Origin: Lachnospiraceae bacterium
GTDB lineage: Bacteria > Bacillota > Clostridia > Lachnospirales > Lachnospiraceae
DNA length: 47,282 nt
Assembly (NCBI GenBank): GCA_017548765.1
Contig: JAFYZH010000001.1
Coordinates: 1-47,282 of the forward strand
Direction of reading: 5' to 3'
The notes beneath the pieces are model-generated. The model was not told the DNA's origin. It did not search any database and saw only the letters and a program-made list of their open reading frames with translations. The position numbers and the translations under genes are program-made. Shown piece by piece: positions 8,816-29,738 of the stretch. Each line of letters starts with the position of its first letter. The stretch's first letter is position 1.

Positions 8816-10624
8816 TTACTCCCCGATCTCCAACGGTCGTGTTACCTTCTTAAGCCAGATCCGCTCTTTTTCTCCCAGATGCGGTTCCATTGTATTATAT
8901 ACAAACGCGTGATATTCGTCAATCCGGCGAATGTCGGCCGGCTCGAGCAGCGACACGTCGATCGCGTCGCGGTCGAACGGCACATAGGTGACCGGTTCGA
9001 ACTTCAGCATGCGTCCGTAAACGGTGTCCATCGCCGGCAGGCAGAGGAGTTCGTTTTCCAGGCGGATGCCGTATTTTCCTTCTACATAAACGCCGGGTTC
9101 GTCCGTCGTGATCATGCCCGGTTTCAGCGCCACGATATCCTTCGAGTCCTCCCGAAGCATCCAACGGAAGGCATTCGGCCCCTCGTGCACACTGAGCGCA
9201 TAGCCGACGCCGTGGCCCGTGCCGCACAGATAGTCCACGCCCTGCTCCCACAGTGGTCCGCGCGCCAGGATGTCCAGGCCGTAGCCCGTCATGCCCTCGC
9301 GGAATACCGCCGACGACAACTGAAAATGTCCTTTCAGCGTCAGGGTATACATGCGCCTTTCCTCTTCCGTCAGCGGTCCCAGAACGATCGTACGCGTGAT
9401 ATCCGTCGTACCCGTCTTATAATGCCCGCCCGAATCGACCAGCAGGAAACCACTCGCATGCAGGGTCGCATTCGACGTCTCCGATGTACTGTAGTGCATC
9501 ATCGCGGCATTCGGTCCGTATGCCGATATCGTCTCGAAACTCAAGTCGATATGATCCGGACGTTCGCTCCGCAGCTTAAGCAGGCGGTCCTCCACGTCCC
9601 TCTCGGTCATCGAACCATCGGTAAATTCTTCTTTTATCTCACGCAGGAACGTGATCATCGCGACCGCGTCTTCCACGTGCGCTTTCTTTATATTAGCAAC
9701 TTCGGTGTCGTTTTTGATCGACTTCCATAAGGAGATCGGCAGCGTATCGTCGTACACGTGCGCATATTGCAATGCACTCTCATACAGTCTCGCATTGACC
9801 CGGGCCGAGTCCATCCAAACGATGTCTTCCGTCTTAAACCGCGCGAAGCTCTTGTAGATATCTTCGTACGGCGCGATCTTCACGCCATCCTCCTGAAGTT
9901 CCTTTTTCAATTTACTGTTCACTGCCTCGCGGGCAATGTACAACGTCGCGTCGTCGTTCGTCACGAGCACGAAGCACATCGCGACCGGAACATGCTTAAT
10001 ATCACTGCCGCGCAGATTGAGAAGCCAGGCCGCGCTCTCGAGCTCGCCGACCGCCACCGCAGTCACTTCCTCTTCCTTCATGCGCTCGCGCAGGCGTCGA
10101 AGTTTTGCCTTCGCGCTCTCACCCGCATAGCAGTCCTCCAGACGCCAGGCAGGGTTCGCCGGACGTTTCGGGCGGTCCTTCCAGATCGTCTCCGCAGGAT
10201 CGATGTCCAGGCGCAGGCTCGCTCCGCAGTCCTCACAGATCTCGGCAAGCTTCCGCTGCTCCGTCTTCGGGATCACATAGCCATTTGCCGCCAGAACACT
10301 GCCCGCACGCAGGTTTTTCTTCAAATAATCCAAGGTCGAGATCACGTCCTTCAGGCCCACCTTATACAACCGGATCCCGCTTCCCGCAAGTTCCTTCTCC
10401 GCCTGCACGTGGTACCGTCCGTCGGTCCACAGGCCGGCATCGTCACGCGTCACGATCAGCGTTCCGGCCGAGCCCGTAAACCCACTGAAGTAACGACGCA
10501 CCTGGTCGTGCGGCGCCACATATTCGGAATTATGGTCATCCGACGAAGGGATGAAAAACACATCCGTTTTCTCGCGTTTCATTAATTCGCGCAACTGTTT
10601 CAATCGCTCTGCAGCCTCACTCAT
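8816..10624 (-). CDS. Xaa-Pro aminopeptidase (aminopeptidase P, M24B)
   Basis: A protein of 602 residues with the three-domain layout of eukaryote-like aminopeptidase P: two creatinase-type N-terminal domains and a C-terminal pita-bread domain. Metal ligands are visible in VDSGGHYKTGTTDITRT (two Asp), GTGHGVGYALSVHEGP (His), ITTDEPGVYVEGKYGIRLENE (two Glu). It removes an N-terminal residue preceding proline in the cytoplasm. The frame is open 40 codons further upstream, but ATG 10624 has AAAGGGA at the right distance and lies downstream of a good promoter, so the shorter start is chosen. mutY follows immediately. Confidence 0.9.
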   Translation of the reverse strand: MSEAAERLKQLRELMKREKTDVFFIPSSDDHNSEYVAPHDQVRRYFSGFTGSAGTLIVTRDDAGLWTDGRYHVQAEKELAGSGIRLYKVGLKDVISTLDYLKKNLRAGSVLAANGYVIPKTEQRKLAEICEDCGASLRLDIDPAETIWKDRPKRPANPAWRLEDCYAGESAKAKLRRLRERMKEEEVTAVAVGELESAAWLLNLRGSDIKHVPVAMCFVLVTNDDATLYIAREAVNSKLKKELQEDGVKIAPYEDIYKSFARFKTEDIVWMDSARVNARLYESALQYAHVYDDTLPISLWKSIKNDTEVANIKKAHVEDAVAMITFLREIKEEFTDGSMTERDVEDRLLKLRSERPDHIDLSFETISAYGPNAAMMHYSTSETSNATLHASGFLLVDSGGHYKTGTTDITRTIVLGPLTEEERRMYTLTLKGHFQLSSAVFREGMTGYGLDILARGPLWEQGVDYLCGTGHGVGYALSVHEGPNAFRWMLREDSKDIVALKPGMITTDEPGVYVEGKYGIRLENELLCLPAMDTVYGRMLKFEPVTYVPFDRDAIDVSLLEPADIRRIDEYHAFVYNTMEPHLGEKERIWLKKVTRPLEIGE

Positions 10625-10659
10625 CGTACGTGATTCCCTTTCTGTTTTCCGGGGAAAAT

Positions 10660-10723
10660 GCGCCCCGTTTGCTCCGCATATTGTACCATAAATCGCGGTT
10701 TTTCGCAAGCGAGGCGCCCCGTT
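10660..10723 (-). promoter_or_regulatory. sigma-A promoter of the aminopeptidase-mutY operon, flanked by 10-bp direct repeats
   Basis: -35 TTGCGA (10703-10708), 17-bp spacer and -10 TACAAT (10680-10685). The 10-mer AACGGGGCGC occurs just upstream of the -35 (10714-10723) and again downstream of the start site (10660-10669), which could be operator half-sites. Confidence 0.65.
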
Positions 10724-10756
10724 CGCGTCTTCCATGAAAGGCACGGTTTGCCTGCC

Positions 10757-12556
10757 CTATTTGGTGTACTCCACTCTCCGCATGCGGTTGATGACCGCCA
10801 GCAGATCCAGCCTTCTGGGAAAGGCCAGATAACGGTCACAGCCCGGGAAGAGTTCAGAATAAACGGCATCCAGCCCCTTCTCTTCGATCTCCGCGTACAA
10901 GGCATCCAGCTCCGCCTCAAGATCGATCGTCTCCCGGTCGGGATCCGAAAACAGATCACCGCCGTGCTTGTTCTCCAGACGACGGATCATAAAACCGATC
11001 GCCGTTCTCTGGTCTTGACAGACGATGTCATGGATGGGGTTCGTGTCGATCTTCTCATCACCGATGATGATAAAACCGATGTCCGGGATCTCCAGTTTTT
11101 CGGGGCCGAATACCTTCGGATACGGCGTAAAGCCCTTCGTCCTCAGGATGCGATCCTGGCTCCAGTCTTCGATCTTCGGCACCTCGGACGCCTTGATCTC
11201 GCCGTTATTATGTACCGCATAGATTTCTTTCGCCCTCTCCGTTACGTTGTAGATCCGGTACTCATCCATCAGATAGACCTGGTCCGCAACTGCCAGATAT
11301 TCGCCGCTGCCGCCGATGACCAGGATCGTCGAAACACCGAGGGAAGTATAAAGTTCATTGACCCGCTCGGTAAACGGCGTGATGGGCTCCCTTCGGATCA
11401 GGTCCTTCATCAACGCGTCGCGGATCATAAAGTTGGTCGCGCTTCGGTCCTCATCGATCAGCAACAGCCGGCTGCCACCGTGAATGGCTTCCAAAATGTT
11501 TGCCGCCTGCGAGGTGGAGCCCGAAGCATGCTCCGTCCGAAACTCCGACGGATCGCCGCCGGGGATCCACGAGATGAACGGTGAGATGTCCAGCGCCATT
11601 ACACTTCGTCCGTCCTCCGCGGAGATCGACATGGCCAATGCATCGGTCACGCACAGTTCCCGGCCGTCCCCGAGGACGTGATCGTAGATCCCGGCCGATA
11701 TCGTATCCAGGACCGTCGATTTTCCGGAATAACCGCCGCCGGTGATGATGGTCACACCCTTTTTGATGCCCAGACCGCGGATCCCGCAAGCCTCGATCTC
11801 TTCCCCCGCGGGAGCCTGAAACGGCACTGCGCCCTCAAGCGCCATACCCGTCTTCGAATCTCTCGGAAGGATGCTTCCGTTCGCGATAAACGAAACATAC
11901 TCACTGCCCGCCAGCCACGCACGCAGGGCTTTCTGTTTTTTCGCAAGTTCGCTCACCTTCCGGCTTCTCTCACGGTCAAATCCATTGATGAACGAACGGA
12001 TCGCCATCGGGATGTTTTCGATCAGCCGAAATGACTTTTTCTTATCGTTTTTCTTCAGTTGTACCTGGATGCGCATACACAGGCACATCTGCGGCTCCCG
12101 GACCTCCTCGGCGCGGTAATACACGAGTGCGCAGCCGCCGACATTCCGATAACTCTTTCGGCAGCGCATCTCAAAATACGCTGAATTCCTCTTAAGGATC
12201 TCCCCGGCCGGATGCGCGGTATAATACCAGCCCGTTTGCTCCCGCGTTTTATGCCGGTTGTACAGTTCGTCGTTCAGATCCTCCAGATACGGAATAAACT
12301 GCCGGTAACAATCGTCCGCGACCGCCGTGCTGAAGTTGTCGATCCCCAGACACTCCGCCGGGATCATACATAAAAACGTCGGCCGGTCATAAAGTTCCCG
12401 GTTGGTCTTCTCGATCGTGAACGACAGATCGCCCGACCAGTACGTCGGATCGTTGATGTCTTTGCCGTCCGGACCCACGGCCAGTCCGGCATACATTCCT
12501 CTCCATTCTTTGGTTTCCTGTCCCATGGACCAAATAATACTTTTTAATCGGATCAA
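10757..12556 (-). CDS. ABC-class P-loop ATPase (PF09818-like)
   Basis: A protein of 599 residues resembling the predicted ABC-class ATPases of the COG3044 type. An N-terminal domain of about 240 residues precedes a P-loop, ITGGGYSGKSTVLDTI near residue 275. A Walker B-like SRLLLIDEDRSATNFMIRD follows near 365, then STILVIGGSGEYLAVADQVYLMD. It has no membrane segments or transporter partner, so it is probably a soluble ATPase; its role is not established. The start chosen is TTG at 12556 with AAGGG upstream; an ATG at 12526 lacks a clear ribosome site. No promoter is evident in its immediate upstream sequence, so it may depend on readthrough from the small unit at 12650-12883. Confidence 0.8.
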   Translation of the reverse strand: MIRLKSIIWSMGQETKEWRGMYAGLAVGPDGKDINDPTYWSGDLSFTIEKTNRELYDRPTFLCMIPAECLGIDNFSTAVADDCYRQFIPYLEDLNDELYNRHKTREQTGWYYTAHPAGEILKRNSAYFEMRCRKSYRNVGGCALVYYRAEEVREPQMCLCMRIQVQLKKNDKKKSFRLIENIPMAIRSFINGFDRERSRKVSELAKKQKALRAWLAGSEYVSFIANGSILPRDSKTGMALEGAVPFQAPAGEEIEACGIRGLGIKKGVTIITGGGYSGKSTVLDTISAGIYDHVLGDGRELCVTDALAMSISAEDGRSVMALDISPFISWIPGGDPSEFRTEHASGSTSQAANILEAIHGGSRLLLIDEDRSATNFMIRDALMKDLIRREPITPFTERVNELYTSLGVSTILVIGGSGEYLAVADQVYLMDEYRIYNVTERAKEIYAVHNNGEIKASEVPKIEDWSQDRILRTKGFTPYPKVFGPEKLEIPDIGFIIIGDEKIDTNPIHDIVCQDQRTAIGFMIRRLENKHGGDLFSDPDRETIDLEAELDALYAEIEEKGLDAVYSELFPGCDRYLAFPRRLDLLAVINRMRRVEYTK

Positions 12557-12591
12557 GTTTTCACCCTTTTAACCTTTCGTTGTCTACTCCT

Positions 12592-12613
12592 GACAGGTCA
12601 TAAACGTCCTGTC
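12592..12613 (-). other. hairpin in the leader of the ABC-class ATPase gene
   Basis: GACAGG and CCTGTC pair around a 10-nt loop about 35 bp before the ATPase start codon. No T run follows, so it is not an obvious terminator; it may be part of a regulated leader. Confidence 0.4.
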
Positions 12614-12649
12614 GTCTTCAGTTACGTATGTGTCCAACGAATTTCGGGC

Positions 12650-12677
12650 AAAAAAATACCGTGACAAACTGCCACGG
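12650..12677 (-). terminator. intrinsic terminator after the 20-codon ORF
   Basis: CCGTGGC/GTCACGG stem with a 5-nt loop, followed on the minus strand by TATTTTTTT. A second hairpin, GGCGG/CCGCC (12686-12701), lies just before it. Together they close a short transcript or act as an attenuator ahead of the ATPase gene. Confidence 0.8.
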
Positions 12678-12736
12678 AAATATAAGGCGGACGATCCCGC
12701 CTGCTATGGAACTATCGCAATATCAGCATCTATCAC

Positions 12737-12799
12737 TTAGTTCAATTCCCGAGGTAATGTTTCGATATTTCGTTTGCTCACTGTATTAAAGCCCTTCAT
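12737..12799 (-). CDS. 20-residue small ORF with strong ribosome-binding site (function unknown)
   Basis: ATG at 12799 is preceded by TAAAGGAGG with an 8-nt gap, one of the strongest Shine-Dalgarno sites in the window. The ORF encodes MKGFNTVSKRNIETLPRELN and then stops with TAA. The peptide is basic and polar, with no hydrophobic segment, cysteine or signal peptide. It sits alone between a consensus promoter and an intrinsic terminator, in the 410-bp gap between the ATPase and the sigma-factor gene. It could be a small protein, a leader peptide controlling the ATPase gene, or the translated part of a small RNA. I do not recognise the family. Confidence 0.6.
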   Translation of the reverse strand: MKGFNTVSKRNIETLPRELN

Positions 12800-12854
12800 G
12801 TCAATTACCTCCTTTACGAATTGAATCAAATATTTTCGTTACATGAACGCCTAC

Positions 12855-12890
12855 ACTATACCATGCAGTTTCGAAGGCGTCAAGCGTTTT
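12855..12890 (-). promoter_or_regulatory. near-consensus sigma-A promoter of the small ORF
   Basis: -35 TTGACG (12878-12883), exactly 17-bp spacer and -10 TATAGT (12855-12860), with a run of A residues directly upstream. The start would fall near 12848, giving a leader of about 48 nt and a transcript of about 200 nt. Confidence 0.8.
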
Positions 12891-12914
12891 TTTCGGAAAA
12901 TGCAGATATGGACA

Positions 12915-12946
12915 TAAAAAGGCGCCGGTCCCAAACCGACGCCTTT
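12915..12946 (-). terminator. intrinsic terminator of the sigma-factor gene
   Basis: AAAGGCGTCGGT and ACCGGCGCCTTT form a 12-bp stem with one wobble around a 5-nt loop, followed by TT and an AT-rich tail on the minus strand. It lies 22 bp past the sigma stop codon. Confidence 0.8.
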
Positions 12947-12967
12947 CGTAAAAGCAATCCCACTCTT

Positions 12968-14080
12968 TTAATCTTCGAGGTAGATCCTCAGGTTGCGCAT
13001 ATCCTTACTAGCGCGTAATCTGCGGAACGCCCGCATCTCGATCTGGCGGACACGTTCGCGTGTGATGTGGAGATAATCGCCGAGTTCTTCGAGCGTCCAC
13101 ATACGTCCGTCCGAGATCCCGTAACGCAGGAGCAATATCTCCTGTTCACGATCGGACAATACTTTCAATGCTTCGATGATATCGTCACGCAACATTCCGG
13201 TCTCGATGACATTGTCCTGGTTCTTCGATTTTTCATCCGGAACGAACTCTTGCAAAACGGAGTCTTCCTCGTCACCGACCGGCGTATCTAAGGATACCGC
13301 ATCGCCTCCGAGCGCCTGCAGGTTCGCCAGCCGATCCTGCGTGATATTCAACAACTTCGCCAGTTCTTCGTCACTCGGTTCTCTGCCGTTTTCACTGATA
13401 AAGGTCGCTTTCGTTTTCGACATGCGATGTAACAACTCGCGGATGTGGACCGGAAGCCGGATGATGCGGGACTGGTCTGCGATGGCCCGGATGATCGCCT
13501 GACGGATCCACCAGGTCGCATAGGTGCTGAATTTGTAGCCCTTCGTGTAGTCGAACTTCTCGACGGCACGGATCAGGCCGATGCTGCCTTCCTGGATCAG
13601 ATCCAGGAGAGCCATGTTGCTGCCGTGAACGTAGTGTTTCGCAACATTGACCACGAGACGAAGGTTTGCGTTGATCAGGCGCTGTTTGGCGTCTTCGTCG
13701 CCTTCCAGGACCTGCTTCGCTACTTCGATCTCCTCTTCTTTGGAAAGCAGAGGGATACGGCCGATCTCACGCAAGTACATGCGGATGGAGTCCGCTACGT
13801 ATTCCGGATCGATCTTCAGCATCTCTTCCGGATCCTCGCTGTATATATCGTCAAAATCGTCGTCTTCATAAACGTCAAAATCTGCATCCGAGTCCATCGA
13901 AAGCTCTTCGTCATCGATCAGGATGACTCCTGCCTTGTTCAAGGCTTTTTCGATCTCCGCCTTTTCTGCCCTACCGGGCTTCTCTTCATACATCATATTG
14001 ACCGTATCCATGTCGATCTGATTATCATTTTCTCTCGCGATCGCGATCAAAACATCGATATTTCCGTTGTTCTTGCTCAT
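12968..14080 (-). CDS. rpoD: RpoD-like sigma-70 factor (first of two)
   Basis: A protein of 370 residues. After an acidic N-terminal portion ([21 protein letters not shown]) come region 1.2 ([23 protein letters not shown]), region 2 ([50 protein letters not shown], written here in pieces), region 3 ([13 protein letters not shown]) and region 4 ([35 protein letters not shown]). These are the -10 and -35 reading domains of primary or group 2 sigma factors. The ATG at 14080 has AAAGGAG eight bases upstream and is preferred over 14101. A second RpoD-like gene lies at 19784, so which is the housekeeping factor is unclear. The 6S RNA gene lies just upstream on the same strand. Confidence 0.9.
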
Positions 14081-14145
14081 ACCCTCATCTCCTTTCCGCA
14101 TGTTTTCTGATAGACCATTCAGACCCCCCTTTTCCCGTTTTTAGG

Positions 14146-14345
14146 GTAAAAGAGAACCCGGAATGCCGTTTCTTGCTTTTTGACTCCTAGCCCCAGCTAG
14201 GTGGGTTTCCGCAACCAGACTTCTGACTTCCACTGCTACGGAGGCCTGTCATCCACCTGGCGATATAGGAATCCCGTATGTCAACATGTAGGTTCAAAAA
14301 TGCAAGCTTGTCGAACACCCCAGGCTCTACTTTATGATGGTCTTT
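14146..14345 (-). ncRNA. ssrS: 6S RNA
   Basis: This gap of about 390 bp holds a structured RNA on the minus strand. The 5' arm AGAGCCTGGGGTG (14316-14328) pairs over 13 positions with the 3' arm CATTCCGGGTTCT (14153-14165). The sequence next to the 5' arm, GTGTTCGACAAGC, closely resembles E. coli 6S (GATGTTCGCAAGC), and the 3' ACGGCATTCCGGG resembles its GGCGGCATCTCGG. Inside, GATTCCTA pairs with TAGGAGTC and an AGGTGG/CCACCT stem continues, giving the long stem with a central bubble that 6S RNA uses to mimic an open promoter and sequester sigma-A RNA polymerase. Ends are approximate. No clear terminator separates it from the sigma gene 66 bp downstream. Confidence 0.82.
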
Positions 14346-14357
14346 TTTCTTACTTAT

Positions 14358-14396
14358 ATAGTATACTGTTTTCTCGAAAATTGCAAGCACTTTTTT
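14358..14396 (-). promoter_or_regulatory. sigma-A promoter of 6S RNA with A-tract upstream box
   Basis: -35 TTGCAA (14381-14386), 17-bp spacer and -10 TACTAT (14358-14363). The 15-mer AAAAAAGTGCTTGCA (14382-14396) is identical to that at the tRNA-Leu promoter. Confidence 0.75.
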
Positions 14397-14473
14397 CTAA
14401 AAACTTTCTAAAATTCTCGAGATACTTCATACAAATACGGTTTTGATGAGTTATTTAGCTGTTTTTTCTCCTT

Positions 14474-15781
14474 CTACTGCACGGAATCGATGATCAAATC
14501 GTGTTTCTTCGGCGCTTTTTCACTAAAATGGTAGGCTTTCCGAAGTCCTTCGAGCGCCGCGGCCATCCGTTCTCCCTCTTCGGAAGCATACAAAACGGCC
14601 AATGTCTCTCCTTTTTCGACGCGATCGCCGGTCTTCTTACGCAAAACCAGGCCTGCTCCGAGGTCGATGACATCCTCTTTCGTCATGCGGCCGGCTCCGA
14701 GTAAGGAGGCTGCGATGCCGACCTGCTCGGTATCCATCCGGCTTACATAACCGGAAACATCGCTGATAAGCTCGTGACCGTATTTTGCAACTGCCAGCTT
14801 CTTCGTGTCGGAAATGACCGAAGGGTCTCCGCCCTGTGCAGCGATCAGTTTTCCGAACGTTTCCAGCGCCTTGCCTTCATCCAAAGCCTTCGTTGCAAGT
14901 TCGCGGCATGCATCCACACTGCCCTTTCCGGCCAATGAAAGCATGTGCGCCGCCAGTTCCAGGCACAATCTGCGCAGATCCGCAGGACCGCGTCCGGAAA
15001 GCGTTTCGATGGCTTCCAGAACTTCCAGGCTGTTGCCGACTGCAAACCCTAACGGAACGTCCATATCGGTGACCAGAGCCGAAACCTTACGGCCGGCCGC
15101 CTTTCCGATATCGACCATCACGCGGGCCAGTTCTTTTGCGTCCTTTTTATCCTTCATAAACGCGCCGCTGCCGCACTTTACATCGAGGACGATGCCGTTG
15201 CTACCCGCAGCGAGTTTTTTACTCATGATGGAGGATGCGATCAACGGAATGGAATCCACTGTCGAGGTGACATCCCGAAGCGCATACATTTTCTTATCTG
15301 CAGGGACCAGATTTCCGGTCTGTCCGGCGATCGCGATCCCGATCTGCCGTACCTGCTCCATAAAGCGATCCGTAGTAAGCGCGGTGGAAAATCCGGGGAT
15401 CGACTCCAGTTTGTCGATCGTTCCGCCGGTGTGCCCCAGGCCGCGTCCGCTCATCTTAGCGACCTTCACGCCGAGAGAGGCCACGAGCGGCGCTACGATC
15501 AGCGTCGTCTTATCGCCGACGCCGCCGGTACTGTGCTTATCCGCCTTAAAGCCGGGGATCGAGCGAAGATCGACCTGATCTCCCGAGGCGGCCATAGCCT
15601 TCGTCAGATGTGATACCTCGGCCTTATTCATGCCACAGAAGCACACAGCCATCATGAACGCGGACATTTGGTAATCCGGGATACGTCCTGAGACATATCC
15701 TTCGATCACAAAATCGATCTCCTCGTTCGTCAGTTTCTTTCCGTTTTTCTTTTTAGCGATCACATCCGGCATTCGTATCAT
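14474..15781 (-). CDS. pdp: pyrimidine-nucleoside (thymidine) phosphorylase
   Basis: A protein of 435 residues, the normal length. It begins MIRMPDVIAKKKNGKKLTNEE and contains the phosphate-binding KHSTGGVGDKTT near residue 81 and the signature MSGRGLGHTGGTIDKLESIPGF near 110. The enzyme splits thymidine, deoxyuridine or uridine into base and sugar 1-phosphate for salvage and carbon use. Its ATG overlaps the stop of the upstream cyclodeaminase gene (ATGA), so the two are translationally coupled. The wider substrate range of Gram-positive Pdp over DeoA is a family inference. Confidence 0.92.
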   Translation of the reverse strand: MIRMPDVIAKKKNGKKLTNEEIDFVIEGYVSGRIPDYQMSAFMMAVCFCGMNKAEVSHLTKAMAASGDQVDLRSIPGFKADKHSTGGVGDKTTLIVAPLVASLGVKVAKMSGRGLGHTGGTIDKLESIPGFSTALTTDRFMEQVRQIGIAIAGQTGNLVPADKKMYALRDVTSTVDSIPLIASSIMSKKLAAGSNGIVLDVKCGSGAFMKDKKDAKELARVMVDIGKAAGRKVSALVTDMDVPLGFAVGNSLEVLEAIETLSGRGPADLRRLCLELAAHMLSLAGKGSVDACRELATKALDEGKALETFGKLIAAQGGDPSVISDTKKLAVAKYGHELISDVSGYVSRMDTEQVGIAASLLGAGRMTKEDVIDLGAGLVLRKKTGDRVEKGETLAVLYASEEGERMAAALEGLRKAYHFSEKAPKKHDLIIDSVQ

Positions 15782-29538: not shown

Positions 29539-29738
29539 GGACTTTTCGAGCCTTGATTTACATTGAATGATACTACGGATTTCTTCGCGTCTTCGACGCT
29601 CTCGAAATCCTACAAACATTCGCCATACTCTTCGCTTTCCTGCGGAAATCGGTATGGCTCATGTTTGTTCGGCTCTCAAGGTCCGACTTGGACATGCGAG
29701 CATGTCCTGTCGGGACTTTTCGAGCCTAGTATCATTCA
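29539..29738. repeat. hairpin-rich intergenic element with inverted ends and 15-bp direct repeats
   Basis: The gap of 215 bp between the DUF58 and transglutaminase genes is almost wholly structured. Outer ends TGAATGATACTA (29564-29575) and TAGTATCATTCA (29727-29738) are perfect inverted repeats. Inside are three stems: GGATTTC/GAAATCC (29577-29610) enclosing GCGTC/GACGC, ACAAACAT..GCCATAC with GTATGGC..ATGTTTGT (29612-29668), and CCGAC..GGACATGC with GCATGTCC..GTCGG (29683-29713). The 15-mer GGACTTTTCGAGCCT occurs at 29539-29553 and 29713-29727. The right inverted end includes the DUF58 stop codon. It may be a MITE-like insertion or a structured mRNA spacer. Confidence 0.75.

Follow-up and report, generated by a model that had tools for sequence, protein, structure and literature searches.

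The closest described systems are the leaders of vmlR, hflXr and bmrCD, cited here from excerpts of the respective papers. In Bacillus subtilis, formation of an anti-antiterminator in the vmlR leader is blocked by drugs that stall ribosomes during initiation (PMC9226507). A short upstream ORF (uORF) of three codons (MIN) precedes an intrinsic terminator, with an SD that is single-stranded before the hairpin, and of three alternative uORF sequences, two performed like the native uORF (PMC9226507). In the rli80-hflXr region of Listeria, a 14-aa ORF overlaps the anti-antiterminator, the peptide contains the macrolide-arrest motif RLR and the controlled gene, a ribosome-factor paralogue, is described as lying downstream of a small RNA (PMC6310831). 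For both vmlR and hflXr, breaking the uORF start codon abolishes induction. In B. subtilis bmrB-bmrCD, translation-dependent attenuation acts ahead of drug-exporter ABC genes; the leader has 53 codons, the terminator lies inside the ORF, and the excerpt names no SD-closing pair (PMC4191407).

We analysed a 47,282-nt stretch of DNA from a Lachnospiraceae bacterium (the window) that carries a leader of comparable design ahead of a gene for an ABC-class ATPase of the PF09818 family. We read this leader as a ribosome-sensing transcription attenuator of the ATPase gene, rather than a peptide gene or a free-standing small RNA, and put the probability of this reading at roughly four in five. The switch probably turns on the ATPase gene when ribosomes get stuck as translation starts. 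The leaders vmlR, hflXr and bmrB are experimentally supported precedents of this logic. As in vmlR, a uORF lies before an intrinsic terminator, anti-antiterminator, antiterminator and terminator compete, a ribosome held at the start would prevent the anti-antiterminator, and the controlled gene encodes an ABC-type ATPase; vmlR, however, is an ABC-F resistance factor, while the gene here belongs to PF09818 (PMC9226507). The uORFs here are also longer (13-29 codons), one arm of the anti-antiterminator is the SD region itself, and the uORF encodes the antiterminator strand. What sets these leaders apart from the precedents is this use of the SD, the position of the antiterminator strand, an architecture that outlasts almost complete sequence turnover and the PF09818 target. 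None of the listed literature matches (titles and beginnings of abstracts of open-licence papers, without supplements) concerned these leaders or their attenuation, and in the excerpts of two large ncRNA surveys the terms ATPase, Paenibacillus and Lachnospiraceae gave no hit.

The leader unit lies on the minus strand between rpoD (12968-14101), which is upstream of it, and the ATPase gene (10757..12556, minus strand; 599 aa, TTG start). The sequence-only reading had described a complete small unit next to a sigma gene without giving its strand, and every element that it listed was located. The promoter (12855..12893) consists of an A7 tract (12893-12887), a -35 box TTGACG (12883-12878), a 17-nt spacer and a -10 box TATAGT (12860-12855), as had been claimed. 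It agrees with the consensus at 10/12 positions, has a TG before the -10 box, and was the sole 10/12 site among the 8 sites found in 10500-14500, where shuffled sequences gave a mean of 3.3 sites. Downstream of it is a strand that we call a (12804..12825), made up of TTCAATTC (12825-12818) and an SD region GGAGGTAAT (12812-12804); the SD of the uORF, TAAAGGAGG, is near-perfect. The uORF (12737..12799) runs from an ATG at 12799 through 20 codons, MKGFNTVSKRNIETLPRELN, to a TAA at 12739-12737. Inside it, codons 7-10 contain strand b, GTGAGCAAAC (12772..12781), the putative antiterminator strand, whose partner GTTTG-TCAC covers the loop and 3' half of the terminator (12669-12661). The end of the ORF contains strand a', CATTACCTCGGGAATTGAAC (12740..12759), which has two possible partners: strand a, a pairing that closes the SD, and CCGTGG in the 5' half of the terminator, reached via CCTCGG. 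The second hairpin of the sequence-only reading is an accessory hairpin, GGCGGGATCGTCCGCC (12685..12702), which is specific to the genus and varies within it. The intrinsic terminator, CCGTGGCAGTTTGTCACGG followed by TATTTTTTT, occupies 12650..12677, with its hairpin at 12677-12659, 5' half (T1) at 12677-12671 and 3' half (T2) at 12665-12659. From the terminator to the ATPase start, a site scan gave nothing resembling a promoter, which bears out the earlier statement that the ATPase gene has no evident promoter. Single-sequence folding of the window leader was mildly unusual (z -1.7).

Between the uORF stop and the accessory hairpin is a 33-nt stretch (12704..12736), of which 30/33 positions are invariant in 6/6 genomes of the genus. 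It is in frame with the uORF (GTG ... CCA TAG), and base pairing is possible between TAGTTC at its end and GAACTA at the stop of the uORF. We considered the genus-conserved in-frame extension VIDADIAIVP as a possible readthrough product or second ORF; other genera lack the stretch. Rfam, at both gathering and permissive thresholds, had no match over the leader in the window or in 34 fetched loci (permissive matches were far below gathering scores), in keeping with the earlier remark that no family could be recognised. Elsewhere in the window, Rfam found 6S RNA (RF00013, 84.7 bits) just upstream of rpoD at 14151-14329 and Clostridiales-1 RNA (RF01699, 104.5 bits) at 29568-29734, both on the minus strand. 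By eye, a hairpin with a T run follows rpoD; the scan did not list it.

In the proposed mechanism, transcription would start a few nucleotides after the -10 box, at about 12848, and the short ORF would be transcribed. Three pairings would then compete. Pairing of a with a' would act as anti-antiterminator and would also shut the uORF's own SD; pairing of b with the loop and 3' half of the terminator, helped by a' with its 5' half, would form the antiterminator; the third pairing would be the terminator hairpin itself. With no ribosome on the leader, or with a ribosome that has finished the ORF, a:a' would close and the terminator would win (OFF). A ribosome held at the start or on the first codons would cover a and leave b and a' free, so that the antiterminator could form and transcription could read through into the ATPase gene (ON). 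We infer that readthrough occurs in vivo and that induction comes from ribosomes that stall during initiation or early in elongation, e.g. under antibiotics that target the ribosome.

The promoter, SD, ORF and terminator were kept at the same place in 6/6 genomes of the genus (the promoter as TTGACG and TATA(G/T)T), while the flanking intergenic DNA diverges, the transcribed part being far better conserved than its flanks. The sequence-only reading had named the lack of a conserved promoter, SD and ORF in relatives, combined with the lack of an RNA-seq transcript, as evidence against itself; these elements proved to be conserved in the genus, together with the terminator. Within the genus, the first nine uORF codons showed no synonymous change, which is a mark of RNA constraint. 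Blastn found the leader unit in 0/35 other genomes. Starting instead from the ATPase gene, we found a leader ahead of 53/53 subfamily loci seen with upstream sequence, from Lachnospiraceae to Paenibacillus. The subfamily was defined as L007-L029 (44% identity or more along most of the protein) plus loci scoring at least 700 bits to protein alignment A3. Three loci that end at a contig edge (L023, L088, L113) are outside this count, and the survey left out the distant ABC-ATPase loci L030-L046 and the intermediate second copies G689:C2 (638.6 bits) and G337:C11 (444.7 bits). The 53 subfamily loci comprise 52 extracted leaders and L128 (24-codon uORF), which is outside all statistics except its own duplex test; the 53 extracted leaders used for statistics are the same 52 and L089, a more distant locus (470.6 bits) with a doubtful leader. 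Extraction anchors were picked by eye, and promoters were checked within the genus only.

The leaders fall into classes with the same order of parts; the class labels were coined in this analysis. Class 1 (20 aligned sequences) contains the genus and clearly homologous leaders of other Lachnospiraceae genera (L011-L022, L024, L078). Its ORF is kept in 20/20 leaders, and the ORF gaps in alignment A4 (L012, L021) are multiples of three. Class 2 and class 3 have other sequences: the SD region and ORF end read GGACAAAATG and CATTTTGTCC in class 2, GGCGAT and ATCGCC in class 3. The class 2 alignment (A5) holds 10/12 members, without L029 and L127, and that of class 3 excludes L116, a near-copy of L115. 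A second Paenibacillales leader type (L108-L111), together with L126, L129 and L089, is in none of the three class alignments, though all are within the 53 extracted leaders. The uORFs of the 53 extracted leaders have 13-29 codons, and from class to class their peptides mostly have nothing in common (MKGFNTVSKRNIETLPRELN, MKTLFLTDKIILPG, MMNIYIYRMSYVSPAVS, MKTKTYNSYPHVAF). Inspection of the 53 peptides by eye revealed neither tandem codons nor an amino acid common to the uORFs. A macrolide-arrest peptide motif was considered as the sensor and rejected, as no shared arrest motif was seen by eye; in this the leaders differ from rli80, which has the RLR motif, while resembling it in the ORF that overlaps the anti-antiterminator (PMC6310831). 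As the peptides share neither sequence across classes nor a codon run, sensing of a specific nascent peptide or amino acid is unlikely, and occupancy of the first codons would be read instead. The lack of peptide conservation between classes is what would be expected if occupancy alone matters.

Two pairings recurred across classes: that of the SD strand a with the ORF end a' (pairing A) and that of the ORF interior b with the terminator (pairing B). Strand b meets different parts of the terminator: in class 1 it pairs with the loop plus 3' half, in class 2 with the loop plus the adjoining parts of both arms, and in L108-L111 and most class 3 leaders with the 5' half. Among 19 non-redundant leaders, the partner from the same leader scored better than partners swapped between leaders, with means of -12.14 vs -7.09 kcal/mol for A and -11.04 vs -8.09 kcal/mol for B. 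The own-pair mean was reached by 0/20,000 permutations for A and 1/20,000 for B (Fisher 1e-11 and 4e-10), and in a stricter set of 10 leaders by 0/20,000 and 104/20,000. The permutation test used single-stem scores because gapped duplex energies were noisier. The own partner was the single best in just 5/19 leaders for A and 4/19 for B. Against dinucleotide shuffles, single leaders reached p<=0.05 in 32/53 cases for A and 23/53 for B; the window leader alone gave p 0.02 for A and p 0.23 for B, its b:terminator stem being weak. No significant pairing was found in the distant leader L089, and the ORF:terminator duplex of L128 gave p 0.39.

Within class 2 (10 sequences), 8/22 pairs changed on both sides and the covariation score was reached by 0/500 shuffles. 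In class 3 (13 sequences) the score was 0.244 vs 0.176, also reached by 0/500 shuffles, and changes on both sides were ordinary (71/500). Only 1/33 pairs changed on both sides in class 1, which is at shuffle level; as these pairs vary too little to be tested, the proof rests on the comparison between classes. The class 1 terminator stem was intact in 140/140 cells (20 sequences x 7 pairs). In predicted class 1 duplexes, CCTCGG of a' can also pair with CCGTGG in the 5' half of the terminator around a U.U mismatch, so that b:T2 and a':T1 would nest into one antiterminator, which a:a' opposes. A short SD-bearing ORF before a terminator, an antiterminator and a blockable anti-antiterminator are all present, the pairings being predicted ones.

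We then placed a ribosome footprint of 31 nt on every codon of each leader and folded the leader to the end of the terminator hairpin, in an equilibrium model without pseudoknots or co-transcriptional order. In the absence of a ribosome the terminator probability was at least 0.85 in 50/53 leaders. A ribosome at codons 1-3 lowered it by at least 0.3 in 27/53, while a ribosome between codon 4 and a position shortly before the ORF end did so in 1/53, the doubtful L089. A few class 3 leaders (e.g. L121, L112, L122) showed a drop at the last codons. Dependence on ribosome position is thus predicted in part of the leaders: in the non-redundant set, a drop at codons 1-3 was seen in 7/19 vs 18/760 shuffles, and no drop was predicted in the other 12/19. 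In the window leader the terminator probability fell only to 0.52, with the ribosome at codon 1. With 12 of the 19 showing no drop and the window at 0.52, the equilibrium model is supportive, not conclusive. In addition, none of the seven RsgA-type leaders of alignment A7 (described below) lost the terminator with a ribosome at the start codon, which counts against a simple equilibrium reading. The best ORF:terminator stem started at ORF nt 17 or later in 51/53 leaders (search from nt 7, without a null); in a few, e.g. L012, L086 and L127, it differs from the stem that one would name b. Position 17 is just past the +16 toeprint of the start-codon ribosome reported for vmlR (PMC9226507).

Leaders of related design were also found before other genes. 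When 295 Lachnospirales genomes were searched with R1, a covariance model of class 1, 9 of them yielded 12 matches in total. One of these, L142 (G000:C70:62508-62674), gives the window's genome a second leader, which precedes a second RsgA gene; this gene scores 156.5 bits as RsgA, below the 177.6 bits of the match on contig C20, and a third match that passes the cut-off is partial (33.5 bits). Further R1 leaders stand before RsgA (L133, after an RNHCP gene, and L134), before GNAT-RsgA fusions (assigned by Pfam in L132 and by N-terminal sequence likeness in L135 and L136), before an M3 peptidase gene (L141) and before a frame that resembles GNAT but has no Pfam match (L137). The matches L138 and L139 contain no leader of such design, and L140 is degenerate. 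A second model (R2), built from seven leaders of the RsgA-type family, matched 37/378 Lachnospiraceae genomes, and 30 loci were fetched. By tblastn, 19/30 have RsgA. Four (L172, L174, L175, L177) have an MsbA-like ABC transporter frame (Pfam ABC_membrane; in the three of them scanned with NCBIfam, the names were below their cut-offs), which recalls the drug-exporter genes behind bmrB (PMC4191407). A clear GNAT gene was present at two (L158, L171), an NFACT/RqcH-like gene at one (L173, several hundred nt further on), and four (L157, L161, L166, L176) had none of these genes or no sequence; L168 carries a leader. Just upstream of the RsgA-type leader before the GNAT gene of L171 is a RAGATH-18 RNA (RF03064, L171:1399-1471). 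The motif ACCTCGG is read as ACC-TCG-GTN (T-S-V) at the ORF end in the RsgA-leader family and as TTA-CCT-CGG (L-P-R) in the window family, so the motif is kept as RNA and not as peptide.

This frame change bears on the main claim of the sequence-only reading, a functional 20-residue peptide or an abundant small RNA; the attenuator with a leader, which it had offered as an aside, is the part that held up. That the peptide itself is the product is a reading to which we give almost no credence. The near-perfect SD and the intact ORF in 20/20 class 1 leaders would fit it, but the peptide sequences differ almost wholly between classes, codons 1-9 bear the mark of RNA constraint, and the same RNA motif appears in different frames in two leader families; with unrelated peptides and a shifted frame, amino acids are not conserved beyond what the RNA needs. 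It is also very improbable that the uORF works as an amino-acid attenuator, in which tandem codons report the supply of a single amino acid, perhaps lysine (codon 2). The layout is that of classical attenuators and codon 2 is Lys in 34/53 uORFs, but the remaining 19 have T, M, Y, F, I, L, S or N there, tandem codons and a common amino acid are missing, and the ATPase is not a known biosynthetic enzyme.

A terminated transcript of ~200 nt could instead act in trans as a stand-alone dual-function or regulatory small RNA, e.g. by pairing of ACCTC with the SDs of other mRNAs. Its strong promoter and terminator, its conservation well above that of the flanks and the complementarity of ATTACCTC to SD sequences speak for such a role. 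We nevertheless regard it as distinctly unlikely as the main function: the unit lies directly upstream of the same gene subfamily at every one of the 53 loci viewed, Rfam has no match for it, the pairings use its own SD and terminator, and in other classes the anti-SD varies with the leader's own SD (GGACAAAATG/CATTTTGTCC, GGCGAT/ATCGCC), which fits a partner in cis. The terminated RNA should accumulate, and a side role in trans may exist. Finally, the pairings could be real and the device could sense missing uORF translation, a:a' and b:terminator forming a pseudoknot that allows readthrough when no ribosome loads. In class 2, b is directly 5' of a' (2-nt overlap in L026) and the two could stack as an H-type pseudoknot. 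However, class 1 and L108-L111 use a' or its neighbours in the antiterminator too, so that there a:a' and the antiterminator exclude each other, and nested folding favours the terminator in the ribosome-free state in nearly all leaders (the 50/53 given above). We consider this arrangement unlikely, and prefer an attenuator that reads through when a ribosome is held at the start.

The controlled protein matches PF09818 with 315.8 bits (cut-off 23.2), and its relatives in the PDB are 5d6a and 4yix. No ABC-F model was found by NCBIfam at E<=0.001, which listed just two transporter ATPase models below their cut-offs; PADLOC gave weak ATPase matches alone (E 0.009 and 0.037). The protein shares the PF09818 P-loop domain and the MRB1590_C domain with MRB1590, a trypanosome RNA-editing factor that binds RNA according to the excerpt of PMC4538832; the subfamily here, by contrast, is bacterial. 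The listed literature matches included no paper on this bacterial subfamily. For canonical Clostridia PF09818 genes, no such leader was seen by eye in the 11/30 viewed in the right orientation, which mostly follow close behind another gene. From the control of the gene, the company that its leader keeps and RNA binding by MRB1590 (PMC4538832), the ATPase presumably acts on stressed ribosomes. Because its transcription would be tied to a parked ribosome, its product is a good candidate for protecting or recycling ribosomes or for their quality control. The family is widespread, and the switch offers a testable handle on its function.

More tentatively, and with somewhat less than even confidence, we suggest that Lachnospiraceae have an RNA-defined translation-stress regulon, in which an anti-SD at the end of a throw-away uORF picks either its own SD or a terminator arm that mimics the SD. 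Such a regulon would control accessory RsgA GTPases, ABC exporters, perhaps an RqcH-like rescue factor, and the PF09818 ATPase; the PF09818 subfamily would be a new class of ribosome-rescue or antibiotic-response ATPases independent of ABC-F, and attenuators built in this way would extend across at least Oscillospirales through Paenibacillales. Sequence-based RNA libraries miss this attenuator family because its architecture survives near-complete change of sequence and peptide. The design of the switch could expose genes that answer to ribosome-targeting drugs in rumen and gut Clostridia.

Several smaller features were noticed around individual leaders. A tRNA-Gly(ccc) gene (L012:4668-4739) lies just upstream of the L012 leader, for which no separate promoter could be seen by eye; one promoter may therefore serve both. 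Several class 3 leaders and L108-L111 have, by eye, a second terminator-like hairpin after the first (e.g. GCACCCGAAGGGGTGC with a T run), possibly a back-up or a further alternative pairing. In Oscillospirales (L112, L114, L115, L116, L119, L129), a short frame resembling the ATPase N-terminus stands ahead of the gene, as if duplicated (by eye). In L011, L013, L015, L016 and L018, a MITE-like insert with ACTATTCAC...GTGAATAGT-like ends was seen by eye between the terminator and the SD of the ATPase gene.
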